Shown here: one piece after another, positions 8,902 to 24,776 of the stretch | Numbering within the stretch: the stretch's first letter is position 1 | How the letters are laid out: every line of letters begins with the position of its first letter | Assembly (NCBI GenBank): GCA_017795025.1 | Contig: CP051243.1 | Coordinates: forward strand, 1,612,001-1,676,000 | Reading direction: 5' to 3' | Length of the DNA stretch: 64,000 nucleotides | From: Flavobacteriales bacterium | Lineage (GTDB): Bacteria > Bacteroidota > Bacteroidia > Flavobacteriales > Schleiferiaceae | Made by a program: the position numbers and the translations under genes | The notes under the pieces: model-generated | The model's input: only the letters and a program-made list of their open reading frames with translations | The model's database searches: none | What the model was told of the DNA's origin: nothing

Positions 8902-11661
8902 ATGCGAACCCTAGTCCCGGTAATATTATTTGTTTTTAGCTTTAGTCAGGCCACAGCGCAACTGCGTTTTGCCTTCGAACAAGAAATAAATACCAAAATT
9001 TATCACGGAAATGATACCGTAATCAATCCTTGGGCCGGAGGATTAAATTATCCCATATTTAACAACTTCGACTTCAATTTTGATGGACTAGACGATATCC
9101 TAGTCTTCGATCGAAGTGGGAAACGTCTGCTTCCAATGGTTAATGAAATCATTAATGGCGACACCGTTTTGCGTTATCACCCGGAGTATATCGATGATTT
9201 CCCCATACCTCGAGGCGAAGGTGCCATGGTTTTGCTGCGTGATTATAATTGTGATGGAAAGGACGACCTTTTCTATTCGGATGGTTTATTCATAAAGGTG
9301 TTTGAGAATACCAGCAGCAATGGACAAATAAGTTTTATTCCCGCTAATAATGGTCAGGCCTTAAATACAGATTATGGCGCTTCCGGAGTTTCCAGACTTT
9401 ATATACCCCGAACCGACTTACCCGATATCAATGACGTTGATGGAGATGGCGACCTTGATATTTTAACTTTCGGTAATGGAGGCGTTCGCGTGGAGTTTCA
9501 CGAAAATCAAACGCCTTGCGGTTTAGATTTCGTTCAAACCGGCACTTGCTGGGGCTTGTTCGAAGAAGGCGGCTTATACCGAACCGTAATGTTAAACAAG
9601 TGCACCGGAGGAAATAAACGGGACTTAGGAAAGGTGATGCATGCGGGTAGCGCCATGTTAACTTGGGACATGGACAACGATAGCGATGTTGATCTACTTC
9701 TTACCAATGTTTCCTACAATAACTTATCCCTCTTAATCAATGGAGGCACCCTCGATTCCTCGGCTATGATTAGCCAAGACACGATGTACCCTGGGAATAC
9801 TCCGGTAGATTTATTTGTTTTTCCCGCCCCCTATCGGGTGGAAACCGGAACTGATGGGATAGATGACATGGTCGTGAGTAGTTTTAGCTCTGCCAGCAGT
9901 GGGAGTCCCGACATGTCTTCCAACCATCGTGGTATCTGGCGTTACCGAAATATTGGTAGCAATAATCAACCAAATTTTGTTTTTGAAGAAGACGATTTCC
10001 TGCAAGGCGATATGGTTGACCCCGGTGCTGCCTCTATCCCTCGATTAGTAGATATAAATGGGGACAGCTTAGTAGACCTAATTTTAAGCATCGCCAATCG
10101 CTATCAACAACCTGGAATTTCCAGCTCCCAATTTTATTATTACGAAAATACTGGCACCGCCAACCAGGCAGAATTTAGCTTGGTCGATACGAACTTTGCT
10201 GATATCCTTCAGTATAGCTTAGGTACTGAATTGGTGCCGGCCTTTGGGGATTTGGATGGTGATGGAGACCAAGACATGATTGTTGGCGCCATTAGCGGCT
10301 ACTTCCACTATTTTGAGAATATCGGAAGTGCCAATAATCCAAATTTCAATCTAAACACACCTATTATAACCAATACCGATGTTGGTGCCGATGCAGCTCC
10401 CTATCTCTTTGATTTGGATAATGATGGCGACCTCGACCTCTTTGTTGGTAATGAGCAAGGAAAGGTATGGTGGTTCGAAAATAGCTCGGCAAGTAGCCCC
10501 AACTTTAGTCAGAAGTCGGATTTCTTTGGTGCTGTTGACGTGAGTCAGTTGGGCCTCTCTGCTAATGCCGTACCTGTATTTTACCGAGACACCACCGGAA
10601 CGAGCACCTTATTTGTTGGCTCACGCGATCAGGGAGTGGTGCAGTATGATGATATAGATACCATTGCCACTTTACCCGCATCGGTTAGCGACACTTTAGG
10701 AAATGCGAGCGACCAAAGCAATAACAGCGATCAAAGCCTTTTTGGCATTAGTAAGCGAAGTGGTCGGAATCAGTTCCTCATCCTAGCTTCCGAACTGCAA
10801 GCCAAAGGCTATCGCTACGGATACATCGAAAGTTTAGGATTCAATATTGTAGACAAGGGCGGCTCGGTACTTTCCAATGGTTTTACCATCAAAATTAAAA
10901 ACACCAACCTCAGTACTTTAAACAATTTCGAAGATAACTTTCCCAGTCCCTACCCGGTGGAAGATTTTATTTATGGCTTTGGGAATGGGTGGAATAATGT
11001 TCCATTACAATATCCTCATTTATGGGATGGTCAATCCAATTTGATTATTGAGGTATGCTTTAGCGGCAATTTCCCGGCTAACAATATTCATTTGGCCATG
11101 ACCGATCAGGGTTTTAATTGTCATGCCCTTGGCGATATCACAGGCTTTAATAACCTTTCGGCAGATGGCTGTGCAATGCCCTACTTGCAAACCATTAGCA
11201 AACGCCCCGATGTGCGCATTAATTTAACCCCTGCGGCCAATCCAGTGCCTAATGTTGGGGTTAACGACCTTTATATTGGTGAACGTACAACGGCCGATTT
11301 TGCGGATATTGATGGTGATGGATACCTCGATGCCGTAGTGGGTAATTTAAGCGGGGGATTAAGTTTGTTTAAAGGGGTTTTATACGATGTTAGTCGCCCG
11401 GAATACCGCACTAAAAACAATAGCGTGTACATCTATCCCAACCCAAATAATGGTCGGTTTACGATAGACCTAAACACCAATGATTTGATGGATTTTGAGC
11501 ATATCCGAATCTTTAACATTCAAGGTCAATTGATTTGGGAACAGCCGGTTACAGAGGAAGCCCAGGTGGAAATCCCCAATAAGCCAAGTCCGGGAATTTA
11601 CCTCGGACAATTAGTAGGTCCCAATGGACAGAAAAGCTTCCGATTTATTATGCAACCATAA
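8902..11661 (+). CDS. Secreted VCBS/FG-GAP repeat protein with T9SS sorting domain
   Basis: A 919-aa exported protein. Signal peptide about 1-20 (ends QATAQ). At least eight calcium-loop FG-GAP/VCBS-type repeats of form DxDGDGxxD are visible, e.g. FDGLDDILVF (about 60), DVDGDGDLDILTF (178), DMDNDSDVDLLL (256), DLDGDGDQDMIVG (449), DLDNDGDLDLFVG (504) and DIDGDGYLDAVVG (801). These build integrin-like beta-propeller blades that bind Ca2+. The last ~80 residues, from VYIYPNPNNGRFTIDL to a C-terminal FRFIMQP, form a type-A T9SS sorting domain, so the protein should cross the outer membrane and be surface-bound or released. Ligand unknown. The gene stands 126 bp before the first giant paralogue, in the same direction, with no terminator seen between them. 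Confidence 0.9.
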   Translation: MRTLVPVILFVFSFSQATAQLRFAFEQEINTKIYHGNDTVINPWAGGLNYPIFNNFDFNFDGLDDILVFDRSGKRLLPMVNEIINGDTVLRYHPEYIDDFPIPRGEGAMVLLRDYNCDGKDDLFYSDGLFIKVFENTSSNGQISFIPANNGQALNTDYGASGVSRLYIPRTDLPDINDVDGDGDLDILTFGNGGVRVEFHENQTPCGLDFVQTGTCWGLFEEGGLYRTVMLNKCTGGNKRDLGKVMHAGSAMLTWDMDNDSDVDLLLTNVSYNNLSLLINGGTLDSSAMISQDTMYPGNTPVDLFVFPAPYRVETGTDGIDDMVVSSFSSASSGSPDMSSNHRGIWRYRNIGSNNQPNFVFEEDDFLQGDMVDPGAASIPRLVDINGDSLVDLILSIANRYQQPGISSSQFYYYENTGTANQAEFSLVDTNFADILQYSLGTELVPAFGDLDGDGDQDMIVGAISGYFHYFENIGSANNPNFNLNTPIITNTDVGADAAPYLFDLDNDGDLDLFVGNEQGKVWWFENSSASSPNFSQKSDFFGAVDVSQLGLSANAVPVFYRDTTGTSTLFVGSRDQGVVQYDDIDTIATLPASVSDTLGNASDQSNNSDQSLFGISKRSGRNQFLILASELQAKGYRYGYIESLGFNIVDKGGSVLSNGFTIKIKNTNLSTLNNFEDNFPSPYPVEDFIYGFGNGWNNVPLQYPHLWDGQSNLIIEVCFSGNFPANNIHLAMTDQGFNCHALGDITGFNNLSADGCAMPYLQTISKRPDVRINLTPAANPVPNVGVNDLYIGERTTADFADIDGDGYLDAVVGNLSGGLSLFKGVLYDVSRPEYRTKNNSVYIYPNPNNGRFTIDLNTNDLMDFEHIRIFNIQGQLIWEQPVTEEAQVEIPNKPSPGIYLGQLVGPNGQKSFRFIMQP

Positions 11662-11787: not shown

Positions 11788-14700
11788 ATGAAAAGATTAC
11801 TATTAACCCTCGCAATGGTGGGTTTTTGGCAATTGAGTTACGCTCAATGTCCGCCAGCCTCTCCATTGACGACTCCGTATTCGGAGAACTTTGACGCCGA
11901 ATCGGCCGGTTACCAAGCCACCTTTGGTAACTGCTACATCGGAACCACTTCTTCTAACCCACGTTGGGAATTTGAAAGTAGTGGTACTGGTAACTCCACC
12001 GGTACCGGGCCCTTAAATGATGCCTCGGGAACTGGTATTTACGCTTACCTCGAAACCTCAGGTGGCGCTTTAGGTGATACCTCGGGATTGATCACACCCC
12101 AAATTAGCTTGGTTGGTTTATCAAACCCCGAACTCCGTTACCTTTATCACATGTTTGGAGCTACCATGGGTAGTCTTCAAGTTTACGTGAACGATGGTAG
12201 TGGCTGGACTTTAGAGAATACCATTACTGGGCAGCAGCAAACTGCCGAAACTGATTGCTGGCTTCCAGCTGCAGTAAGTTTAAGCTCTTATGTTAACGAT
12301 ACCGTACGTATCAAATTCGTAGGTACTCGTGGATCTTCTTTTACCGGAGACCTTTCAATTGATGAGATTGAAGTAGACGAGGCTTTAAACTGTCCTGTTC
12401 CTCTTAATTTAAGTTGGATTGCGAGCACCTCAAGTTCTGCCGACTTACGTTTCGATGCAGTAGCGAGTGCGACCAGTGGATATCGCGTTTATGTAGGTAC
12501 ACCCGGATTTAACCCAAGTACAGCTACTCCACAAACATTCACAAACGACACGGTAACCCTTACCGGTCTTAGCCCTGCAACTACTTATGAGGCTTATGTA
12601 GAATCTGACTGTGGATCGAATGGTTTAAGTGGCCCTTCTATTTGTGCCATTACTTTCCAAACATCTTGTGTTCCGTTTAATACGAACTACACCAGAGACT
12701 TTGATAGTGATGCCGACAATGCGCCTGCACAATGCTGGGCTCAATATTCGAGCTATGACCCTACGAACTCTTGGGCAAGAGTAGAAACGCTATCTACTTT
12801 TAATAACCCACAACCCTACAATGGTAGTAATGTAGTAGAGCTTTACAGCTACACAAACTTCACCCCTGCAGATACGCTTGTGGCTATAAGCCCAGAGTTC
12901 AGTGACATGACTTCTAACAGTCGTCAAATTAAATTCCAAGTAGCTTCTCAGAGCGCATCAAACACCTTGATTATTGGTACAACTAATTCTCAAGCTCCTG
13001 GAGCGCCCATTAGCTGGATTGACACTGTAAATAACCTTTCTACCGCTTGGCAATTAATCATCTTACCACTTAATGCTTCTAGCGGTTATAATGGTACTGA
13101 CAAGTATATCGTATTCAAGCATGGTTTAGAAAACACCTTTAGCGATATTTATATTGATGACTTCGTATATGAAGCCATTCCTGCTTGTCCTCAGTTAACT
13201 AATATTAGCAACACCTCAGTTGGAATTACTACGGCTACCTTTACGTATACTAGCGGCGGTAACCCTGTTCAGTACGAATGGGGCCCAGTAGGATATACTC
13301 AAGGTACGGGTACTGTAGGTAACCTTCCTTCTGGTACGGGTACTATCACTGGTATGAGCTCTGCTTCTTGCTACGATGTTTACTTACGTACCGATTGTAC
13401 TTCTGGTGGTAACGGGACTTCCGTATGGTCTGGTCCATTTACCGTTTGTACTTTATGTACTACTCAATCTTTACCTTACTCCGAAGACTTTGAAATTAGT
13501 TTAGGCTGTTTCGTAGCGACCGACGGAGGTAATACCAGCGATACTTGGGTGCATGCCACCTCTACCACCACCACTACCGGTGCCGGCGGTGTTGATGGAT
13601 CTACTGGTTGGGTAGAAGTTGATTCGGATAATGCTGGATCTGGTGCAATTACTATGGACGAAGATTTAACCAGTGCCTATATTGATGCAGGTAACATTAC
13701 CGGAACACTTTATTTAGAGTTCGATCATTTCTATCAGCACCTTGGTTCTCAAGGTACGGTTGAAATTTGGGATGGTACGGCCTGGCAAAATGTTTACACT
13801 GTAACAGCCACTATTGGTTCTTTCGGGAATCCTGATCATCAGAAAATTGATATTACCGCTTACGCTAACGACAGCTTACAAGTTCGTTTTAACTATGATG
13901 ACCTTGGCGTTTGGGCCTGGTGGTGGTTGATTGACAACGTATTGGTTCAAGAGGAACTTTGTGCACGCTCAACTAACTTCCAAGCTGCATTCGTTACCGC
14001 TGACTCGGTTGGCCTTGCATGGAATCCAGGTGCAGGTACCGTTTTCGGAATTGAGTACGGAACTACCGGCTTTACTCCAGGTACAGGTACTACGACCAGT
14101 ACTACCGATTCTACCATCACTATTACAGGTTTAACCTCACAAACCTCTTACGACTTCTATCTTATTGATAGTTGTGGTGCTACGGCGAGCTTACCCGTAA
14201 TGATTACCGTTGGAACCGCTTGTGCCATCAGTGCACCCGCAGTGCTTCCTTTAATGGAAGGTTTTGAGGCTTATTCTCAAGGTCCAACCTTTACCGGAAC
14301 CAACGAGTATCTGTGTAACCCTTCTTACTACTGGGCATTAAACCCTTCCTCGGCGAACGGTCGTTTCCGCTTACAAACTGGTGCTACCTATAACCGCAAT
14401 GGTTTACAGGCAATGACTATGGATCACGATCCATTTGTGAGTCCACAGCAAACCAATAGCTTGACCATGACTGTTAACCTTAGTAACTACACCAGTGCCA
14501 ATGGTATTGAGTTGAGTTTCTATTGGATGCGTCATACAACTACTTCTCGCCCTGGCAACAAGGTATTTATTCGTGGTAGTGCCGCAGATTCATGGATTGA
14601 GTTAGCGAGCTTAAACAACAACCTTTCTGGTCAATTTGATTCGATCATTGGCATGGACATCGTTGCCCCATTAGCGGTGGCTGGTCAAACGGTTAGTGCG

Positions 14701-17700
14701 ACTACACAAATTCGCTTCGATCAAGAAGGTCAGTCAGGTTCTAACTTCAGCAATACTTGTTGTGATGGTTACACCCTAGACGATATCATGTTAGAAGCAG
14801 TTGCTTGTCCATTACCTGGTGGATTAAATGTGAGCAGTGTATTCGATACAACCGCCACTTTAAACTGGGCGGGAGCCACTTCTGCCAGCAACTTCCAATA
14901 TTGGTTTGGACCAGCTGGTTTCTTCCAAGGAACTTCAACTACAGCTGGAGTTAAAGCATTTGCTTCTGCATCCGGTGTAGTAGTGGACACTTTAAGTCCA
15001 TTTACCTGCTACGAATTCTTAGTGCGTACCGTTTGTCAGCCTGGTGATACTTCATCTTGGAGCGCACCTTTCCAATTCTGTACTCCTTGTAGCCCCATTA
15101 CCGCTCCTTACACTGAGGATTGGGATGGTCTAAGCCCACAGAGTAAAGATGTAGGTTGTTTCAGCTCTATCGAAGATCCTAGTTTAGGTACTTCAACTTT
15201 CTTAGGTATCACTATTCAGAATAGTACTTTCTACAATCCGATATCCTCTCCAAATTATGTTGAGATGGATAACTCGAATGTGAATACGGCTCCATTAATG
15301 CTGGTTTCACCTCCTACCACGGATATGAATGCTGGTGATAAGCGTATTGAGCTTTATGCTCGTACTACCTTTACCGCTTCTCCTCCCGATTATTTGGTAA
15401 TAGGAACAATGAGCGATGGTAATAATGCCAATACTTTCCATGCTTTGGATACTATCTATCCAGATGGAACAGCATTTACACGTTATGTCGTGGATATCAC
15501 TACCGCGAATGGCTATAATGGAACGGATATGTTCTTTGCCATTTCTCACGGAAACTTAGCTACTTTCCGCACTATTCTAGTGGATGATGTTACTTATGAG
15601 CAAATTCCTAGCTGTCCAGAAGTAAGCAACTTGGCTACTCTTCAAGTTGACAGTATGAATGCCGAGGTATCTTGGACTCCATTTAGTGGCAGTACCGGTA
15701 CTTTCCAGGTAGAATATGGAACAAGTTCATTAGGCGCGGCTTCTCATACCCGAGTAATCGCTAATAATGATACTACCACTCTTACCGGTCTTACTCCTGG
15801 AACAAACTACTGTTACTGGGTACGTGAAATCTGTGCGCCTGGCGATACCAGTATTTGGATTGGACCAAACTGCTTTAAAACCGAGTGTTTAAGCATTTCT
15901 GCTCCTTATTATGAGAACTGGGATGGCTTAGCCGCTGGTTTAGACCTTGGTTGCTTTAACAAATATGAAGACCCAAGCTTAACCATCAGTACTTTCCAAG
16001 GGGTGACTATTCAGAATAGCACCTTTAACCAGCCTTTCTCTGCACCGAATGTGGTGGAATTGGATAATGCTGGTATTGTGAATGATGATCTGATGCTAAT
16101 TTCTCCACGCACTAATGATTTAAGTAGTTCTGCAAACCGTGTTCGTTTCTACGCTCGTACGACTACTACCTTCAATAGTCCTGAGATTGTAGTTGGCTCC
16201 ATGAGCAATCCATTGGATAATAGCACCTTTAATGCACTAGATACTATTGTATTGCAAACTGGAGCTATGATGGAATACATCGTTAACTTCGATGCAGCTA
16301 ATGGCTACAATGGCACCGACAAGTACTTTGCTTTTGCCCATGGTTTAAAAGCAACATTCCAAACCATTTTTATTGATGACGTTTTCTACGAAGCGATTCC
16401 TACTTGTGTTCGCCCAGATAGCTTGGATGTTACCAATATTACTTCCACTAGTGCAAGTGTTACTTGGGCTTCGGTTAATGGTGGTAGTAACTTCCAATAC
16501 GAGTACGGTATCAACCCATTAGGTGATCCTAACAATACCCGTGCACTGAGCACTGCTACTCAAGTTCCATTAAACGGACTAAGCGCCGGAACTGGCTACT
16601 GTGTATGGGTACGTGAGATTTGTACGCCTGGTGATACCAGCTTCTGGAGAGGACCATTCTGCTTTAGCACTCTTTGTGCGACTAGCAATCCTGCTCCTTA
16701 CTTCACTAACTTTGAAGGAATCTCTATTGGTACTGCTACCGGTACTCCTGCAGGTTGGGAAAACTGTTGGACGCATAACCAGGGAACTGGTACCGTACGT
16801 TGGGAATCAGAAGATGCTACTGGTGCAAACGAAAACAGTACAGCAACTGGTCCTTTCTACGATGCCACTACGCCTAACGTAAGCGGTGGTACTTACATGT
16901 ACCTCGAGACTTCGTCAACTGGTGGTCCATCAGAATTGATTTCTCCTCCTATCGACATTACTGGCTTAGCCAGTCCAGAGGTAGAATACTGGTACCACAT
17001 GTTTGGAGCTACTATCAATAAACTGGTTGTTTACGCCGAAGATGCAAACGGTACTCGTACAGCGATTGATAGCCTTGTTGGTCAGCAACAAACTACTCAG
17101 GCTGATCCATTCTTCCAGCGCAATGTGAGTATTGCAAGTCTGACCGCTGGTGTATACAAGTTCGTATTTGAAGGCCATAGAGGTACTTCCTTTACCGGTG
17201 ACATCTCTATTGATGACTTCCGTGTACAGGTGGGTGCTACTTGTCCTCGTCCTACTTTCTTAAATCAAACTGCGAAAGGATTAACCGATATGACAATTGC
17301 TTGGACCGCAAATGGTACAGGCTCTAGCTGGGAAATTGAATATGGTCCTGCTGGATTTACTCCAGGTACAGGTACCCTTTCTATTGTTACCACAAACCCA
17401 ACTACTATTACCGGTTTAACCGCTGCTACCAATTACGACGTTTACGTGCGCGAAATTTGTGGCCCTGCTGATACTTCAGCCTGGACTGGACCACTTGCGG
17501 CAAGCACCGGAATTTGTGCGGTAAGTAGCCAATGTTGGTTTGTATTTGATCTTAAAGATACCTTCGGTGACGGATGGAACGGTGGTGAAATCACCATCTA
17601 CCAAAACGGTATTGAAGTAGGTAAAATGGGATCAGCGTTTACCACTGGTACCTTATATACCGACTCCATCCTACTTTGTGATATGTTCAATACTTCTGTA

Positions 17701-18642
17701 GTATTAACTGCCGCAGGTGGATGGCCAAGTGAAATTGGTTTAGATGTATTTGATCCTACTGGAGCGAATGTAGGCACCTATTTAGCTAGCTTTACTACCG
17801 CCCAAGGTGATACCCTAACGAGCTTTATGGCTAGTTGTTCGGGTGCTCCTACTCCATGTGCTATGCCCGATTCTGTTTGGACTACCTCAAACATCGCTTG
17901 TGATGAAATTGAAGTAGACTGGAACAGCAATACCGGTGGTTCTTTAATCGAATATGGTCCAGCTGGATTTACCCCAGGTAGCGGTACTTTAACCGCGGTG
18001 GTTACCGCTCCATACTTGATTACCGGACTTACTCCTGGTACAGCCTATGATGTTTACGTAGCCGATACTTGCGGTACTACGGATACTTCTGCCTTCAACA
18101 TGATCAGCACTTCTACCGCCTCTGGTCCATTACCAGTTGCGAGCTTCACTATCGATAGTGCTATCGTGGGTAGTGCTTACGAAGTGTATGTTGATGCTAG
18201 TGCTTCTACTGATGCGGATAGCTATGAGTGGAACTTTGGTAACGGCGTAACTTCTACCGCTGCCGCTGATACCATGATTTACCTTGGTAATGGTAGCTAT
18301 ACCATTACCTTAGTTGTGAGCAATGCTTGTGGTAGCGATACCATGACCTACAACATCAATGTAAACATTGGCTTAGACGAAAATCCATTAGCCCATAGCT
18401 TGAATGTATATCCTAACCCAGCCGATTACCGCGTGAATATTAGCTTCACCGCTATCAATAGCGCCAATGCCGTAATCCGTTTAGTAGATGCTCAAGGCCG
18501 TGAGGTATTGCGCACTACCGAGCGCGCTGCAGGAGGTAAATTCGACTACAACATGGATGTAAGTGATCTTGCTTCCGGTATTTACATGATTGAAATTACC
18601 TCAGGAGAGCTTACCGCTCATCGCAGATTATCTGTGAAATAA
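11788..18642 (+). CDS. Giant modular T9SS-secreted protein 1 (jelly-roll/MAM + FN3 x8 + PKD)
   Basis: A 2284-aa exported protein; the ATG at 11788 directly precedes a clean signal peptide (1-20), so the in-frame TTG 6 nt earlier is not needed. After it, jelly-roll or MAM-like modules of ~170-200 aa alternate with fibronectin-III domains, each pair joined at a Cys. Approximate FN3 positions: 203-293, 467-556, 726-811, 1009-1100, 1277-1367, 1541-1630, 1820-1909 and 2025-2112. The jelly-rolls start with PYSENFD-like motifs and end in IDDF or IDDV. Residues 1911-2024 form a distinct module with FGDGWNGGEI. A PKD domain (about 2113-2193) and a type-A sorting domain (about 2196-2284, LNVYPNPADYRV) follow. 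Likely a surface adhesin or matrix protein; no catalytic motif seen. A terminator follows. Its ends are nearly identical to the next gene. Confidence 0.9.
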   Translation: MKRLLLTLAMVGFWQLSYAQCPPASPLTTPYSENFDAESAGYQATFGNCYIGTTSSNPRWEFESSGTGNSTGTGPLNDASGTGIYAYLETSGGALGDTSGLITPQISLVGLSNPELRYLYHMFGATMGSLQVYVNDGSGWTLENTITGQQQTAETDCWLPAAVSLSSYVNDTVRIKFVGTRGSSFTGDLSIDEIEVDEALNCPVPLNLSWIASTSSSADLRFDAVASATSGYRVYVGTPGFNPSTATPQTFTNDTVTLTGLSPATTYEAYVESDCGSNGLSGPSICAITFQTSCVPFNTNYTRDFDSDADNAPAQCWAQYSSYDPTNSWARVETLSTFNNPQPYNGSNVVELYSYTNFTPADTLVAISPEFSDMTSNSRQIKFQVASQSASNTLIIGTTNSQAPGAPISWIDTVNNLSTAWQLIILPLNASSGYNGTDKYIVFKHGLENTFSDIYIDDFVYEAIPACPQLTNISNTSVGITTATFTYTSGGNPVQYEWGPVGYTQGTGTVGNLPSGTGTITGMSSASCYDVYLRTDCTSGGNGTSVWSGPFTVCTLCTTQSLPYSEDFEISLGCFVATDGGNTSDTWVHATSTTTTTGAGGVDGSTGWVEVDSDNAGSGAITMDEDLTSAYIDAGNITGTLYLEFDHFYQHLGSQGTVEIWDGTAWQNVYTVTATIGSFGNPDHQKIDITAYANDSLQVRFNYDDLGVWAWWWLIDNVLVQEELCARSTNFQAAFVTADSVGLAWNPGAGTVFGIEYGTTGFTPGTGTTTSTTDSTITITGLTSQTSYDFYLIDSCGATASLPVMITVGTACAISAPAVLPLMEGFEAYSQGPTFTGTNEYLCNPSYYWALNPSSANGRFRLQTGATYNRNGLQAMTMDHDPFVSPQQTNSLTMTVNLSNYTSANGIELSFYWMRHTTTSRPGNKVFIRGSAADSWIELASLNNNLSGQFDSIIGMDIVAPLAVAGQTVSATTQIRFDQEGQSGSNFSNTCCDGYTLDDIMLEAVACPLPGGLNVSSVFDTTATLNWAGATSASNFQYWFGPAGFFQGTSTTAGVKAFASASGVVVDTLSPFTCYEFLVRTVCQPGDTSSWSAPFQFCTPCSPITAPYTEDWDGLSPQSKDVGCFSSIEDPSLGTSTFLGITIQNSTFYNPISSPNYVEMDNSNVNTAPLMLVSPPTTDMNAGDKRIELYARTTFTASPPDYLVIGTMSDGNNANTFHALDTIYPDGTAFTRYVVDITTANGYNGTDMFFAISHGNLATFRTILVDDVTYEQIPSCPEVSNLATLQVDSMNAEVSWTPFSGSTGTFQVEYGTSSLGAASHTRVIANNDTTTLTGLTPGTNYCYWVREICAPGDTSIWIGPNCFKTECLSISAPYYENWDGLAAGLDLGCFNKYEDPSLTISTFQGVTIQNSTFNQPFSAPNVVELDNAGIVNDDLMLISPRTNDLSSSANRVRFYARTTTTFNSPEIVVGSMSNPLDNSTFNALDTIVLQTGAMMEYIVNFDAANGYNGTDKYFAFAHGLKATFQTIFIDDVFYEAIPTCVRPDSLDVTNITSTSASVTWASVNGGSNFQYEYGINPLGDPNNTRALSTATQVPLNGLSAGTGYCVWVREICTPGDTSFWRGPFCFSTLCATSNPAPYFTNFEGISIGTATGTPAGWENCWTHNQGTGTVRWESEDATGANENSTATGPFYDATTPNVSGGTYMYLETSSTGGPSELISPPIDITGLASPEVEYWYHMFGATINKLVVYAEDANGTRTAIDSLVGQQQTTQADPFFQRNVSIASLTAGVYKFVFEGHRGTSFTGDISIDDFRVQVGATCPRPTFLNQTAKGLTDMTIAWTANGTGSSWEIEYGPAGFTPGTGTLSIVTTNPTTITGLTAATNYDVYVREICGPADTSAWTGPLAASTGICAVSSQCWFVFDLKDTFGDGWNGGEITIYQNGIEVGKMGSAFTTGTLYTDSILLCDMFNTSVVLTAAGGWPSEIGLDVFDPTGANVGTYLASFTTAQGDTLTSFMASCSGAPTPCAMPDSVWTTSNIACDEIEVDWNSNTGGSLIEYGPAGFTPGSGTLTAVVTAPYLITGLTPGTAYDVYVADTCGTTDTSAFNMISTSTASGPLPVASFTIDSAIVGSAYEVYVDASASTDADSYEWNFGNGVTSTAAADTMIYLGNGSYTITLVVSNACGSDTMTYNINVNIGLDENPLAHSLNVYPNPADYRVNISFTAINSANAVIRLVDAQGREVLRTTERAAGGKFDYNMDVSDLASGIYMIEITSGELTAHRRLSVK
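11911..12685 (+). repeat. 5' homogenised block, copy 1
   Basis: About 775 bp almost identical to 19033-19807 in the next gene; by eye only a couple of dozen mostly synonymous differences and one amino-acid change (Leu/Val before SIDEIEVDEA). Encodes the first jelly-roll and first FN3 domain. Confidence 0.9.
17862..18642 (+). repeat. 3' homogenised block, copy 1
   Basis: About 780 bp matching 23931-24711 with roughly twenty differences by eye and one amino-acid change (Ile/Val). Encodes the last FN3, the PKD domain and the T9SS sorting domain. Confidence 0.9.
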
Positions 18643-18668
18643 GCCTGATTTAAGGTAATTCTTATACC

Positions 18669-18707
18669 AAGCCCGAGCGTCAAGAAATTGGCGCTCGGGT
18701 TTTTTTA
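18669..18707 (+). terminator. Rho-independent terminator of giant gene 1
   Basis: Stem 18672-18679 with 18692-18699 (CCCGAGCG/CGCTCGGG), 12-nt loop, then T7. It lies 30 bp after the stop codon and separates the two giant genes into independent transcripts. Confidence 0.9.
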
Positions 18708-18821
18708 TGCCAAAAAAAATTCCGGATAGCTATCAACTTTACTCGGAAAAAAAAGGGGAGAATAATTCTAAATCACCGGTTAGTCATATACAACAAGGCT
18801 TTTAAGCCTTCCTAATAATTA

Positions 18822-18850
18822 TTGCTAAGACCTACGTATCAATACATTAG
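18822..18850 (+). promoter_or_regulatory. Weak candidate promoter of giant gene 2
   Basis: TTG (18822-18824), 18 nt, TACATTAG (18843-18850), one mismatch to TAnnTTTG. It falls after the upstream terminator and about 60 bp before the ATG at 18910. Confidence 0.35.
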
Positions 18851-18909
18851 GACTTGCATCTTAATTTTAAATGACTACATTTATTATTATTAACCATTTC
18901 TTTAACCCT

Positions 18910-21900
18910 ATGCATAAAAAGCTACTAACTCTTGCATTAGGTTTACTCTCTGCAATGGCCATGGCGCAATGCCCGCCAGCTGCTCCTCTGAGTACACCTT
19001 ATTCCGAAAATTTTGATAGTCAAAGCGCAGGATACCAAGCCACCTTTGGTAACTGCTATATCGGAACCACTTCTTCTAACCCACGCTGGGAATTTGAAAG
19101 TAGTGGTACTGGTAACTCCACCGGTACCGGGCCCTTAAATGATGCCTCGGGAACTGGTATTTACGCATACCTCGAAACCTCAGGTGGCGCTTTAGGTGAT
19201 ACCTCGGGATTGATCACACCCCAAATTAGCTTGGTTGGTTTATCAAACCCTGAACTCCGTTACCTTTATCACATGTTTGGAGCTACCATGGGTAGTCTTC
19301 AAGTTTATGTAAATGATGGTAGTGGCTGGACTTTAGAGAATACCATTACTGGGCAGCAGCAAACTGCCGAAACTGATTGCTGGCTTCCAGCTGCAGTAAG
19401 TTTAAGTTCTTATGTTAACGATACCGTACGTATCAAATTCGTAGGTACTCGTGGATCTTCTTTTACGGGAGATGTTTCCATTGATGAGATTGAAGTAGAC
19501 GAGGCTTTAAACTGTCCTGTTCCCCTTAATCTAAGTTGGATTGCGAGCACCTCAAGTTCTGCCGACTTACGTTTCGATGCAGTAGCGAGTGCGACCAGTG
19601 GATATCGCGTTTATGTAGGTACACCCGGATTTAACCCTAGCACTGCTACTCCACAAACTTTCACAAATGATACGGTAACCCTTACCGGTCTTAGCCCTGC
19701 AACTACTTATGAGGCTTACGTAGAATCTGACTGTGGATCGAATGGTTTAAGTGGCCCTTCTATTTGTGCCATTACTTTCCAAACTTCTTGTGTTCCGTTT
19801 AATACTTTTTATACCCGCGATTTTGATGTAGACGCCGATGGGGCCGTGCCACAATGTTGGGCTCAATACAATAATTACGATCCCCTTAACGCCTACGCTC
19901 GGGCAGAGTCGGTTACCAATGCCTATTCTGGCGGTAATGTTTTGGAGATGTATAGCTACTTTAACTTCAGTGCTGGCGATACTTTGATGGCAATCAGTCC
20001 GGAGTTTAGCGACATGACCAGCAATACCCGGCAAATCAAGTTTTATGCTAGCTCCCAATCGGCAACCAATACCTTAATTGTAGGAACCACTAACTCACAA
20101 GTGCCCGGTGCTCCCATTAACGTTTTAGACACCATTAGTCTCAGCACGAGCTGGCAGTTAACCATATTACCCTTAAATGCTAGCAGTGGTTATAATGGAA
20201 CTGATAAGTATATCGTATTCAAGCATGGTTTAGAAAACACCTTCAGCGATATCTATATTGATGACTTCGTATACGAAGCCATTCCTGCTTGTCCTCAACT
20301 CACGAACATTAGCCTAAGCAACGTGGGCATTACTACCGCCAGCTTCACCTACAATAGTGGTGGTAACCCTGTTCAATTCGAATATGGACCGGTTGGCTAC
20401 CAGCAAGGAACGGGCACCACGGGTAATATCACCTCGGGGACCGGTACAATCACAGGATTAAGCTCTGCCAATTGTTATGATGTGTACCTACGCACAGATT
20501 GTACCTCAGGAGGAAATGGAACTTCAGTATGGTCGGGTCCCTTTACCGTTTGTACCCTTTGCTTAACGCAAACCTTACCCTACAGCGAAAATTTTGATAT
20601 TGGTTTAGGTTGTTTTGTAGCCCAAGACGGAGGTACAACCAGCGACACTTGGGTACAGGTTACGTCCAGTACCACCACCTCTAGTCCCACCGGTTTAGAT
20701 GGCTCCCCTGGCTGGGTAGAAGCTGATTCCGATAATGCAGGCTCGGGTTCCATCACCATGGATGAAGTGCTTTTAAGTCCTTATATCGACGCGGGCTCCA
20801 TAAGCGGCACCCTCTACCTCGAATTTGATCAATTCTACCAACACCTGGGTTCTAACGCTATTGTAGAAGTTTGGGATGGCAGCTCCTGGATAGGTCTATT
20901 AAACCAAACCAGTAATATCGGTGCCTTTGGTAGTCCCGATCATCAAAAAATTGACTTAACCGCCTATGCCAACGATAGCTTGCAAGTGCGATTTGTATAT
21001 AAAGATAACGGAGCTTGGGCCTGGTGGTGGCTCATTGATAATGTGCTTATTCAGGAAGAACTTTGCGCTCGCTCCACCAATTTCCAAGCGGCTTTTGCCC
21101 TTTCGGATTCTATTGGCCTGTCTTGGGACCCCGGTTCAGGTGGTACTTTTAGCATTGAATATGGACCTGCTGGCTTTAGCCCTGGTTCCGGAACCATTGT
21201 TTCGACCACCGACTCTAGTTTAACTATTGCTGGATTAAGCGCACAAACGACTTATGATTTTTACTTGGTTGACTCCTGTGGGGGTATCGCCAGTTTACCG
21301 GTCTTCCTTAGTGCCACAACTTCATGTGCCTTAAGCAGTCCCGCGGTTCTGCCTTTGGTCGAGGATTTTGAATCTTATACTGTAGGCCCAACCTTCACCA
21401 GCGCCGATCAATTATGTAATCCGAGCTACTTGTGGAGCATGGACCCTGATGCCAATGGCCAATTCCGCTTGCAGGCGGGTGCTTCCTACCTAAGAAATGG
21501 CTTGCAGGCCATGACCGTTGACCAAAGCACCTTTGCCTCCAATTTGGCAGAGAATGAATTTACTATGACGGTTGATTTAAGCAATTACACAACTGCCAAT
21601 GGCATTACCCTGAGCTTCTATTATATGCGTCATACCACCACCTCTCGTCCGGGTAATCGTGTTTTAGTCCGCGGAAGTGCCGCCGACACCTGGGTACAAA
21701 TTGGGACAATGAATTCGCCCAACTCCGGCAGTTATGATTCGATTATTGGTTTGGATATTGTCGCTCCCTTAGCGCAAGTAGGACAAAGTGTTGGGCCTAC
21801 TACTCAAATCAAAATCATTCAGTCTGGTCAATCGAATGCCTTCTCCAATACCTGTTGTGATGGCTTTACTATCGATGACCTAAGACTAGACGCCGTGAGC

Positions 21901-24711
21901 TGTCCCAAGCCGGGTAACCTTGCGGTATCAAGTTTATTCGACACTACTGCAACCTTAAACTGGGCTGGAACTTCTGGTAACTATCAATATTGGTTTGGTC
22001 CTGCAGGCTTCTATCAAGGAACTACCACTACGGCTGGGGTAAAAGCCATCAGCTCTAGCTCTGGAGTAGTCGTAGATACCCTAAGTCAGTTTACGTGCTA
22101 TGAGTTCTTAGTTCGCAGTATTTGTAGCGCTGGCGATAGCAGCTCTTGGGAAGGACCCTTCCAATTCTGTACTCCTTGTAGCCCTGTTAGTGCTCCCTAT
22201 TTTGAAGATTGGGATGCTTACTCATCCGCCTCAAAAGACGTGGGTTGTTACGGTATTATTGAAGATGCTTCCTTTAGCAGCTCAACCTTCCAAGGGGTTA
22301 CAATTCAAGACTTTACTTTCTATAACCCCATCAGTCCATTAAATTTTGTGGAACTGGATAATGGATCTACTACTACTCCACTAATTTTGGTATCACCCCC
22401 AACCACAGATTTAGATGGCGGCGATAAGCGCGTTGAGTTCTTTGCCCGATCAACCTTTAATGCCACTCCTCCCTCCTCGATTATCGTGGGTACCTTAAGC
22501 GATGGTTCCAATCCAAATACCTTCCACCCCATTGATACGGTTTACCCAGATGGCGCGGCCTTTACCCAATACACTGTGGAATTCACCACCGCTAATGGCT
22601 ATAACGGAACAGACATGTTCTACGGATTTATGCATGGTCAAGATGCCACTTTCCGAACCGTTTTAATTGATGATGTTTTATACGAGAATATTCCTACTTG
22701 TGTACGTCCAACGGCGCTTCAACAAGATTCGGCAGACCTCAACTTGATTCATCTATCTTGGACTTCCAACGGAACAGGTAATTCATGGGAAATTGAATAT
22801 GGCCCCGTAGGTTTTAGCCCTGGTACGGGAACAACCGTAATTGCTAATAGCAACCCTTATACCTTAACAGGATTAACTTCGGCCACGGCTTACGATGTGT
22901 ACATTACAGAAATTTGTGCTCCAGGTGATTCCAGTCGACAAGTTGGGCCAGAACAAATGTCTACTACCGTATGTGCAGCGGCTAATCAGTGTTGGTTCAA
23001 TTTTGACCTTTTAGACTCCTTTGGCGATGGCTGGAATGGAGGTCTCGTAGAAATTCGTCAAAATGGAGTAACCGTGGCCACCCTTGGAACTACCTTCACT
23101 ACGGGAAGCATTGTTTCTGACTCCCTTCTTTTATGTGATAACTTCAGTACTACTATCGTGGTTACCAATGCCGGTGGTTGGCCAAGTGAAATGGGAATTG
23201 TAATGTATACCCCATGGGGAGATACGGCGGTGCATTATCCTGCCTCAGGAACTACCGGTTTGAATACCATTATGGGAACTTTTACCGCCCTTTGTACTCC
23301 GCCAACTTGTAATGCTCCAAGTCAGATTAGCCAAACGAGTGCCGGTCTTACCGATATCGGTATGAGCTTTACCGCGAATGGAACTGGTAGCAACTATGAG
23401 ATCTCTTTTGGTGTACCCGGACATATGGCGGGTTCCGGAACGATACTAAGTACCACCAGCACCACTTACACCATTACGGGCCTAAGCTCTGCTACAACCT
23501 ACGATGTATATGTTCGTGAAATTTGCGGCCCTGGGGATACCTCAGCTTGGGCTGGACCAGAGCCTATGAGCACTTCTATTTGTGCCGCTGCAGATCAATG
23601 TACCTTCGACTTTGACCTTACCGATTCCTTTGGCGATGGTTGGAATGGCGCAGAAATCACGGTTTATCAAAATGGAATCGAAGTGGGTAAGCTTGGTCAA
23701 AACTTTAATACTGGAAGCCTGTATCAAGATTCATTATCCTTGTGCGACTCCTTGCCAACGACCATCATTCTTACAACCGCTGGTGGTTGGCCATCTGAAA
23801 TTGGCTTCTATGTTTATAATCCAAATGGAGATACCGCGGCCTTCTACTTAAGCAATTTCACAACTGCTCAAGGAGACACAATGGCGAACTTTATCGCTTA
23901 TTGTACAGGCTCGCCCTCAAGTCCATGTGCCATGCCAGATTCTGTTTGGACTACCTCAAACATCGCTTGTGATGAAATTGAAGTTGACTGGAACAGCAAT
24001 ACCGGTGGTTCTTTAATCGAATATGGTCCAGCTGGATTTACCCCAGGTAGCGGTACTTTAACCGCGGTGGTTACCGCTCCATACTTGATTACCGGACTTA
24101 CTCCTGGTACTGCCTATGATGTTTACGTAGCCGATACTTGCGGTACTACGGATACTTCTGCCTTCAATATGATTAGCACTTCTACCGCCTCTGGTCCATT
24201 ACCAGTTGCGAGCTTTACTATCGATAGTGCTGTCGTGGGTAGTGCTTACGAAGTGTATGTTGATGCTAGTGCTTCTACTGATGCCGATAGTTATGAGTGG
24301 AACTTTGGTAACGGGGTAACTTCTACCGCTGCCGCGGATACCATGATCTACCTTGGTAATGGTAGCTATACCATCACCCTAGTAGTGAGCAATGCTTGTG
24401 GTAGCGATACCATGACCTACAACATCAATGTGAACATTGGCTTGGACGAAAATCCATTAGCCCATAGCTTGAATGTATATCCTAACCCAGCCGATTACCG
24501 CGTGAATATTAGCTTCACCGCTATCAATAGCGCCAATGCTGTAATCCGTTTAGTAGATGCTCAAGGCCGCGAGGTATTGCGCACTACCGAGCGCGCTGCA
24601 GGAGGTAAATTCGACTACAACATGGATGTAAGTGATCTTGCTTCTGGTATTTACATGATTGAAATTACCTCAGGAGAGCTTACCGCTCATCGCAGATTAT
24701 CTGTGAAGTAA
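18910..24711 (+). CDS. Giant modular T9SS-secreted protein 2, paralogue of protein 1
   Basis: A 1933-aa exported protein. I use the ATG at 18910 because it gives a standard signal peptide (MHKKLLTLALGLL, cleavage after AMAQ); an ATG at 18871 would add 13 residues ahead of it. The module order follows protein 1: jelly-roll and FN3 pairs through the fifth jelly-roll, then FN3, a GDGWNG module (about 1356-1468), FN3, a second GDGWNG module (about 1559-1672), a last FN3, PKD (about 1763-1843) and a type-A sorting domain (about 1845-1933). Relative to protein 1 it lacks two jelly-roll/FN3 pairs and has gained one GDGWNG module; seven FN3 domains in all. First and last ~260 residues are almost identical to protein 1, while the middle differs clearly. 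Probable surface adhesin; ligand unknown. Confidence 0.9.
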   Translation: MHKKLLTLALGLLSAMAMAQCPPAAPLSTPYSENFDSQSAGYQATFGNCYIGTTSSNPRWEFESSGTGNSTGTGPLNDASGTGIYAYLETSGGALGDTSGLITPQISLVGLSNPELRYLYHMFGATMGSLQVYVNDGSGWTLENTITGQQQTAETDCWLPAAVSLSSYVNDTVRIKFVGTRGSSFTGDVSIDEIEVDEALNCPVPLNLSWIASTSSSADLRFDAVASATSGYRVYVGTPGFNPSTATPQTFTNDTVTLTGLSPATTYEAYVESDCGSNGLSGPSICAITFQTSCVPFNTFYTRDFDVDADGAVPQCWAQYNNYDPLNAYARAESVTNAYSGGNVLEMYSYFNFSAGDTLMAISPEFSDMTSNTRQIKFYASSQSATNTLIVGTTNSQVPGAPINVLDTISLSTSWQLTILPLNASSGYNGTDKYIVFKHGLENTFSDIYIDDFVYEAIPACPQLTNISLSNVGITTASFTYNSGGNPVQFEYGPVGYQQGTGTTGNITSGTGTITGLSSANCYDVYLRTDCTSGGNGTSVWSGPFTVCTLCLTQTLPYSENFDIGLGCFVAQDGGTTSDTWVQVTSSTTTSSPTGLDGSPGWVEADSDNAGSGSITMDEVLLSPYIDAGSISGTLYLEFDQFYQHLGSNAIVEVWDGSSWIGLLNQTSNIGAFGSPDHQKIDLTAYANDSLQVRFVYKDNGAWAWWWLIDNVLIQEELCARSTNFQAAFALSDSIGLSWDPGSGGTFSIEYGPAGFSPGSGTIVSTTDSSLTIAGLSAQTTYDFYLVDSCGGIASLPVFLSATTSCALSSPAVLPLVEDFESYTVGPTFTSADQLCNPSYLWSMDPDANGQFRLQAGASYLRNGLQAMTVDQSTFASNLAENEFTMTVDLSNYTTANGITLSFYYMRHTTTSRPGNRVLVRGSAADTWVQIGTMNSPNSGSYDSIIGLDIVAPLAQVGQSVGPTTQIKIIQSGQSNAFSNTCCDGFTIDDLRLDAVSCPKPGNLAVSSLFDTTATLNWAGTSGNYQYWFGPAGFYQGTTTTAGVKAISSSSGVVVDTLSQFTCYEFLVRSICSAGDSSSWEGPFQFCTPCSPVSAPYFEDWDAYSSASKDVGCYGIIEDASFSSSTFQGVTIQDFTFYNPISPLNFVELDNGSTTTPLILVSPPTTDLDGGDKRVEFFARSTFNATPPSSIIVGTLSDGSNPNTFHPIDTVYPDGAAFTQYTVEFTTANGYNGTDMFYGFMHGQDATFRTVLIDDVLYENIPTCVRPTALQQDSADLNLIHLSWTSNGTGNSWEIEYGPVGFSPGTGTTVIANSNPYTLTGLTSATAYDVYITEICAPGDSSRQVGPEQMSTTVCAAANQCWFNFDLLDSFGDGWNGGLVEIRQNGVTVATLGTTFTTGSIVSDSLLLCDNFSTTIVVTNAGGWPSEMGIVMYTPWGDTAVHYPASGTTGLNTIMGTFTALCTPPTCNAPSQISQTSAGLTDIGMSFTANGTGSNYEISFGVPGHMAGSGTILSTTSTTYTITGLSSATTYDVYVREICGPGDTSAWAGPEPMSTSICAAADQCTFDFDLTDSFGDGWNGAEITVYQNGIEVGKLGQNFNTGSLYQDSLSLCDSLPTTIILTTAGGWPSEIGFYVYNPNGDTAAFYLSNFTTAQGDTMANFIAYCTGSPSSPCAMPDSVWTTSNIACDEIEVDWNSNTGGSLIEYGPAGFTPGSGTLTAVVTAPYLITGLTPGTAYDVYVADTCGTTDTSAFNMISTSTASGPLPVASFTIDSAVVGSAYEVYVDASASTDADSYEWNFGNGVTSTAAADTMIYLGNGSYTITLVVSNACGSDTMTYNINVNIGLDENPLAHSLNVYPNPADYRVNISFTAINSANAVIRLVDAQGREVLRTTERAAGGKFDYNMDVSDLASGIYMIEITSGELTAHRRLSVK
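19033..19807 (+). repeat. 5' homogenised block, copy 2
   Basis: Partner of 11911-12685; same frame and same place in the protein. Identity falls sharply after about 19807, where the second jelly-roll begins. Confidence 0.9.
23931..24711 (+). repeat. 3' homogenised block, copy 2
   Basis: Partner of 17862-18642; the match begins at the last FN3 domain and stops at the stop codon (TAA in both). Confidence 0.9.
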
Positions 24712-24736: not shown

Positions 24737-24776
24737 TAAAAGCCCGGCAATCGATTTTGGTTGCTGGGCTTTTTCG
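24737..24776 (+). terminator. Rho-independent terminator of giant gene 2
   Basis: Stem 24741-24750 with 24761-24770 (AGCCCGGCAA/TTGCTGGGCT, one G-U pair) and a T-run. The A-run on the 5' side suggests it may also stop the converging helicase transcript. Confidence 0.85.

Follow-up and report, generated by a model that had tools for sequence, protein, structure and literature searches.

The window analysed here, a stretch of 64,000 nucleotides at positions 1612001-1676000 of a Flavobacteriales genome (G000; 3.44 Mb in a single contig), carries two giant genes in tandem on the forward strand. From their open reading frames and their Pfam and NCBIfam matches, gene 1 (11788..18642) encodes a predicted giant surface protein of 2284 aa, and gene 2 (18910..24711, with a frame open from 18871) its predicted tandem paralogue of 1933 aa. 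According to a module map drawn with HMMs made out of gene 1's own modules, gene 1 has a signal-like N terminus, seven repeats of a MAM/choice-of-anchor-J-like sandwich plus fn3, one FGDGWNG-type module, and then fn3, PKD and a T9SS type A C-terminal domain, and gene 2 has five repeats of sandwich plus fn3, two of an FGDGWNG-type module plus fn3, PKD and the T9SS C-terminal domain. The proteins of gene 1 and gene 2 exceed the curated cut-offs for TIGR04183 (T9SS type A; 45.9 and 43.7 bits, cut-off 23) and PF18962 (52.3 and 49.3 bits, cut-off 27). The two proteins also match PF00629 (MAM; 112.7 and 59.7 bits, cut-off 26.4), PF00041 (fn3; 119.8 and 99.3 bits, cut-off 25) and NF038128 (choice-of-anchor-J; 58.2 and 58.5 bits, cut-off 30), and PKD lies above its curated cut-off in both. 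Both begin with what looks, by eye, like a signal peptide, and both products are predicted T9SS type A cargo. Each gene is followed on the forward strand by a terminator-like inverted repeat with a T-run (18669..18706 and 24738..24774), seen in the sequence and by self-comparison, and the two hairpins are unlike each other. An FG-GAP protein of 919 aa with a T9SS tail of its own is encoded directly upstream of gene 1 (window positions 8902-11661), and a PIF1-like helicase lies downstream of the pair on the opposite strand.

The two genes are nearly identical at their ends and strongly diverged between them. The 5' tract runs from 11911 to 12683 in gene 1 (codons 42-298 or 42-299) and from 19033 to 19805 in gene 2, both on the forward strand, and contains most of the first MAM module, the whole first fn3 and the first residues of the next module (97.2% identity over 773 bp ungapped, pS 0.11-0.12, pN 0.002). 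The 3' tract, also on the forward strand, extends from approximately 17853 to 18642 in gene 1 and from approximately 23922 to 24711 in gene 2, and contains the last fn3, PKD, the T9SS C-terminal domain and the stop codon (97.3% over 786 bp ungapped, pS about 0.11, pN 0.002). A reading made from the letters alone, hereafter the sequence-only reading, had already pointed to the near-identity of 11911-12685 with 19033-19807 and of 17862-18642 with 23931-24711, and our counts confirm it, with 751/775 and 759/781 identical positions (24 and 22 differences). By the Nei-Gojobori method, codons 42-299 hold 22 synonymous changes and one non-synonymous change (pS 0.119, pN 0.002) and codons 2023-2284 hold 21 and one (pS 0.114, pN 0.002), which gives 43 synonymous versus 2 non-synonymous changes in all, so both copies are under purifying selection within the tracts. 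The diverged cores (12684..17852 in gene 1 and 19806..23921 in gene 2, forward strand) stand at pS 0.76 to one another, with pS 0.763 and pN 0.210 in the proximal core and pS 0.758 and pN 0.371 in the distal core.

Synonymous differences are thus saturated outside the tracts (76-77%) and amount to 11-12% inside them, and the binomial chance of either tract is about 1e-76 if sites are taken as independent and 0.763 as the background pS. Segmenting the alignment into two states yielded, among tracts no shorter than 25 codons, codons 42-298, 439-468 and 2028-2284 and no other. The second of these is a small patch within the core (13102..13191 in gene 1, partnered by 20206..20295 in gene 2, forward strand) with a pS of 0.18 compared to 0.77 for the rest, 95.5% identity over 110 bp (ungapped) and ends at most 2 codons from a module boundary. 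Step changes in dS had been predicted near 12690/19807 and 17862/23931, and pS does step sharply at both places, within tens of bases and with no gradient. The mismatch per 60 bp falls from 35% to 3% at the start of the 5' tract and rises from 2% to 37% at its end; it falls from 75% (a value inflated by a one-codon indel) to 3% at the start of the 3' tract and rises from 2% to 63% just past the stop codon, with which that tract ends. The sequence-only reading had included the signal among the parts kept the same, which is not what we found, as the 5' tract starts at codon 42 and codons 1-41 are diverged (pS 0.813).

Our search for relatives covered 39 genomes including G000, of which G001-G006 share its genus. 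An orthologous tandem pair, genes A and B, occupies the same place in the same order in the congener G005, where the FG-GAP gene next to the pair is 72% identical to that of the window (68-74% in G003, G004 and G002) and the helicase flanks the other side, behind an extra frame of 771 aa. A single gene lies between the same neighbours in G003 and G004. In the core tree G000_2 grouped with G005_B with a support of 100, joined by the G003 gene (100 aa, 98 nt), and G000_1 grouped with G005_A with modest support (68 aa, 83 nt), whereas both end trees paired G000_1 with G000_2; all of these trees rest on six or seven sequences. The AU test rejected the orthology tree at both ends, with a delta lnL of 104 (nt) and 68 (aa) in the 5' tract and of 285 (nt) and 132 (aa) in the 3' tract; for the core it rejected a tree in which all four copies pair by species (132 nt, 243 aa). 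When only G000_1 and G000_2 are joined in the core, the AU and SH tests disagree: the former rejects that tree (0.012 nt, 0.0002 aa) and the latter does not (0.19, 0.09). Synonymous sites are saturated between the paralogues and near saturation between the orthologues. Because the cores group by gene and the ends by species, the paralogues are, on the evidence of these trees, older than the split between G000 and G005, and the ends are younger. It had also been claimed that the ends are conserved while a putatively ligand-facing core varies, and between species this fails: pN between orthologues is similar in the 5' end, the core and the 3' end (over seven between-species comparisons, 0.12-0.26 for the ends against 0.13-0.20 for the proximal core). 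Constant ends around a variable core are a fair description of the outcome within G000 and not of the family between species.

We surveyed 57 related frames from 17 genomes (frame limit 600 aa; fragments from G002 contigs included) with ungapped alignment and harsh scoring, taking as a tract at least 90% identity over at least 90 bp and excluding repeats inside single frames from the pair counts. Near-identical tracts joined 8 of the 20 adjacent pairs versus 0 of the 87 other same-genome pairs (Fisher p 4e-7), a neighbour effect confounded by the closer kinship of adjacent paralogues and measured on loci picked by similarity, partly for being tandem, so that the rates are not family-wide. The eight include two pairs with short matches (G005 t2/t3, 92 bp; G001 t1/t2, 108 bp), and with tracts of at least 300 bp only the count is 6/20 (p 2e-5). 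The pair A/B of G005 has a 3' tract of its own, 173 codons from a PKD boundary to the stop codon with a pS of 0.068, and a saturated 5' end (pS 0.77); judging from this tract, G005 has homogenised its 3' end separately from G000. This giant protein family has another tandem array at 347-366 kb of the G000 contig (C1; L065 3109-16336, with the other genomes' loci at L066-L076), with two or three frames of more than 1500 aa in each of G000-G006. At this second locus G004 t1/t2 share codons 33-397 (pS 0.051; 98.6% over 1105 bp, with 848 consecutive identical bases) and G005 t1/t2 share codons 216-390 (pS 0.28; 90.3% over 842 bp), and the sister genome G001 shows no such sharing there. Across these codons most windows of G005_t2 stand at a pS of about 0.6-0.7 to G001_t2, where 0.4 is usual, and because t2 is unusually far from its G001 counterpart there, it was probably G005_t2 that received the stretch from t1. 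Two genomes of other genera in the same family have tracts as well, G014 over codons 55-606 (pS 0.057; 98.2% over 1688 bp) and G009 over 127 codons (pS 0.147; 96.1% over 381 bp). Separate tracts thus recur at different places in G005, G004, G014 and G009, and all seven tracts of at least 300 bp sit in the outer 30% of the pair's first gene. Two of the three 3' tracts reach the stop codon and the third, in G009, ends 531 bp before it.

With a probability of about 0.93, we consider genes 1 and 2 to be old tandem paralogues between which gene conversion copied both ends after the split from the G005 lineage. Conversion between neighbours had been proposed by the sequence-only reading, and it is supported by the pS steps at both predicted places, the orthologous pair in G005 with cores grouping by gene and ends by species, the independent 3' tract of G005 and the restriction to neighbours in the sampled loci. 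Most simply, this would have been non-crossover recombination of homologous DNA, presumably by a RecA-type mechanism, acting on direct repeats that lie 7.1 and 6.1 kb from each other. At the 5' end it would have copied most of the first MAM module together with fn3 between the genes, and at the 3' end fn3, PKD, the T9SS domain and the stop codon, while the cores, already too diverged to pair well, would have kept their separate identities. The scarcity of long exact identity may protect the cores, in a threshold model in which alike stretches keep converting and diverged stretches no longer pair, and an exchange of ends may be close to neutral, since the export tails of the two genes are of one kind. 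Beyond the two main tracts, exact matches of 25 bp or more between G000_1 and G000_2 number just two, of 38 and 26 bp. Seven tandem pairs lacking a long tract were examined in the same way, and a match of this length (26 bp) turned up once in each of two pairs and not at all in the other five, a scarcity that a lack of exchange would itself leave. No third donor copy was seen in G000, where the DNA of the 5' tract matches only its two copies (E 1e-5) and that of the 3' tract matches its two copies, then the second tandem locus at 67% over about 610 and 410 bases, and further short stretches of 149 bases (70%) and 46 bases (87%).

Import of the ends from other strains by natural transformation would leave the same marks as conversion inside the genome, and Porphyromonas gingivalis, a member of the same phylum, is naturally competent according to passages of PMC5266723. 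We nevertheless regard such import as unlikely, as the tracts of G000 and of the seven other pairs join neighbours in the same genome, with 0/87 among non-adjacent pairs, and exchange within the genome explains neighbour-only tracts without an outside donor. Unequal crossing over, the other process that had been put forward, is in our view very unlikely to have made the pattern by expansion or contraction of the array: a crossover between the direct repeats, which are spaced at 7.1 or 6.1 kb, would remove a gene or add one, whereas both genes are intact and in order, each retains a core, a signal-like start and a terminator-like hairpin of its own, and the two cores are in place and match A and B of G005. 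Array size does vary, G000 and G005 having two genes where G003 and G004 have one, and the core of G003's single gene contains a gene-2-like stretch; unequal crossing over may well account for the number of copies.

Alike ends and unlike middles would also be expected from a recent whole-gene duplication after which one core was replaced from elsewhere, and the equal pS of the two tracts (22/185 vs 21/184 sites, p = 1) is as from one event. The G005 pair refutes the simple form of this cassette swap, because the G000 cores group with the G005 cores in the same place and order, which makes the pair older than the split and the ends younger; a second import, of an orthologous core, would be needed, and we consider the swap extremely improbable. 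There is virtually no chance that the ends were kept alike without any exchange, by selection on export and anchoring, for this is refuted by the synonymous sites, which are alike too (pS 0.11-0.12 vs 0.76). The T9SS tail and the stalk modules are plausible targets of constraint and just two non-synonymous differences fall within the tracts, yet between species pN at the ends (0.12-0.26) is set against a similar 0.13-0.20 in the proximal core, and the 5' end of G005 A/B is without low pS (0.77).

Under gene conversion the direction had been read as from gene 1 to gene 2, and codon use favours this for the 3' tract only, where the likelihood ratio points to core 1, at 14.0 for one copy and 11.6 for the other, with a 95% interval above 0. 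The corresponding ratios for the 5' tract (9.1 and 9.0) have a 95% interval that spans 0, and GC3 does not give a clean answer, at 0.355 in core 1, 0.426 in core 2, 0.33-0.35 in the 5' tract and 0.40 in the 3' tract. Trees of the 5' tract, of its two parts and of the parts of the 3' tract did not separate donor from acceptor. By protein distance the G000 copies lie nearer G005_B in the distal 5' part (columns 220-304), and in the last fn3 they lie nearer G005_A, both with weak support, and for the two tracts taken together either gene may have been the donor.

The tract edges were compared to module boundaries using the 28 edges of 14 tracts, from which five were dropped beforehand (three starts before codon 60 and two ends at the stop codon). 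Eight of the 23 remaining edges fall at most 7 codons from a boundary (p 0.005 under random placement, with a 7-codon limit set after seeing the data and edges of one pair that are not independent), including the inner edges of both main G000 tracts and the G005 edge, and the mean distance from edge to boundary is 23.5 vs 36.8 expected (p 0.01). Four small patches in G004 have none of their eight edges within 7 codons of a boundary; parts of the G004 and G014 proteins are absent from the module map, and conserved linkers lengthen identity at the boundaries. These data are suggestive of a tendency of tract edges towards module boundaries. A bolder reading, which we regard as doubtful, is that the tandem T9SS giants of this family swap whole end cassettes, with tracts that tend to begin or finish at module edges and may extend as far as the stop codon, sparing the signal peptide and keeping the cores. 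Either selection or recombination at conserved cysteine linkers would then respect the module edges, and a shared stalk and anchor would be reissued across neighbours while each core stays specialised.

Segmental concerted evolution of babA and babB in Helicobacter pylori was reportedly first described by Pride and Blaser in 2002. The babA and babB products are outer membrane beta-barrel adhesins and are not known as T9SS cargo or as giant modular proteins. Alike export ends and unlike binding cores are also found in the Haemophilus adhesins HMW1A and HMW2A, which belong to two-partner secretion and are encoded at separate loci, and the translation factors RF1 and RF2, to which we return below, are not known to form a tandem pair. 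In the G000 pair pS runs from 0.12 in the 5' tract through 0.76 in the core to 0.11 in the 3' tract, the pattern of babA/babB, and the ends group by genome and the middle by gene, with G000_1 plus G005_A as the weakest point. Sections of a review describe extensive 5' and 3' homology around a variable middle in babA/babB, with a 3' segment more alike within a strain than between strains (PMC3960876). To the extent covered by those sections, the G000 pair is like babA/babB (and homA/homB) in being surface paralogues with alike ends and a variable middle. It differs in that both its 5' and its 3' tract are homogenised, whereas strong within-strain likeness is stated there for the 3' segment only, and in that our comparison is between species rather than between strains.

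In Porphyromonas gingivalis, adhesin repeats of rgpA, kgp and hagA are described in parts of PMC5266723 as identical within and between genes and varied in order. As far as those parts go, these are likewise large modular surface proteins of a T9SS bacterium, with internal repeats that are shared and rearranged, whereas in G000 it is the terminal segments of neighbouring genes that have been homogenised, most inner modules having stayed distinct. Conversion between RF1 and RF2 is limited, according to portions of a paper with a section on Bacteroidia, to the domain with functions common to both paralogues, and runs in either direction (PMC4530459), in translation factors rather than in surface proteins as here. 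Among the matches listed for the open-access literature that we searched, there was no earlier report of gene conversion in T9SS tandem surface proteins. The G000 pair exemplifies segmental concerted evolution, for which bacterial adhesins already provide precedents, and what appears new on sequence grounds is a clear case of it in predicted tandem T9SS giant surface proteins. Because this natural case is clean and comes with an orthologous pair and single-copy relatives, dating, tract edges and direction are open to study. Domain trees built from the ends of such proteins mislead, as the ends track the genome and the cores track the gene.

The single gene of G003 (L061 6901-13821) looks mosaic. 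It clusters with G000_2 and G005_B in alignment columns 600-750 and again in 750-900 (bootstrap 99 each), in columns 900-1050 G000_2 and G005_B group alone at 100 without it, its placement is poorly supported in columns 304-600, and its distal core is of the gene-1 type. This suggests that the G003 lineage once had both copies, exchanged pieces of the core too and then lost gene 2, with ancestral variation as the alternative.

In several relatives the locus is incomplete. It is cut by a contig end in G006 (L063), and in G002 it lies in pieces (L064, L098), with a 698-aa frame that stops 863 bases before the contig end and a 3.6-kb contig that is one open frame. The draft of G001, a near sister of G005, is without the pair (L110, C36), which is not evidence of loss because the contig breaks off some 700 bp beyond the helicase, in the direction in which the pair should lie. 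Draft assemblies tend to break at such ends and may under-report such tandem pairs, with contigs broken at or near the locus. The extra frame beside the PIF1-like helicase is common to G005 (771 aa; L060 17686-19998) and G002 (862 aa; L111 6086-8671), 83% identical between them, and matched neither the helicase nor the FG-GAP gene of the window. Inside 8 of the 57 surveyed frames there are also near-identical repeats (90-98%, 92-356 bp), so that module copies are alike within one gene too (L134, L115 and L116, L132, L137, L119, L120 and L121, L130).
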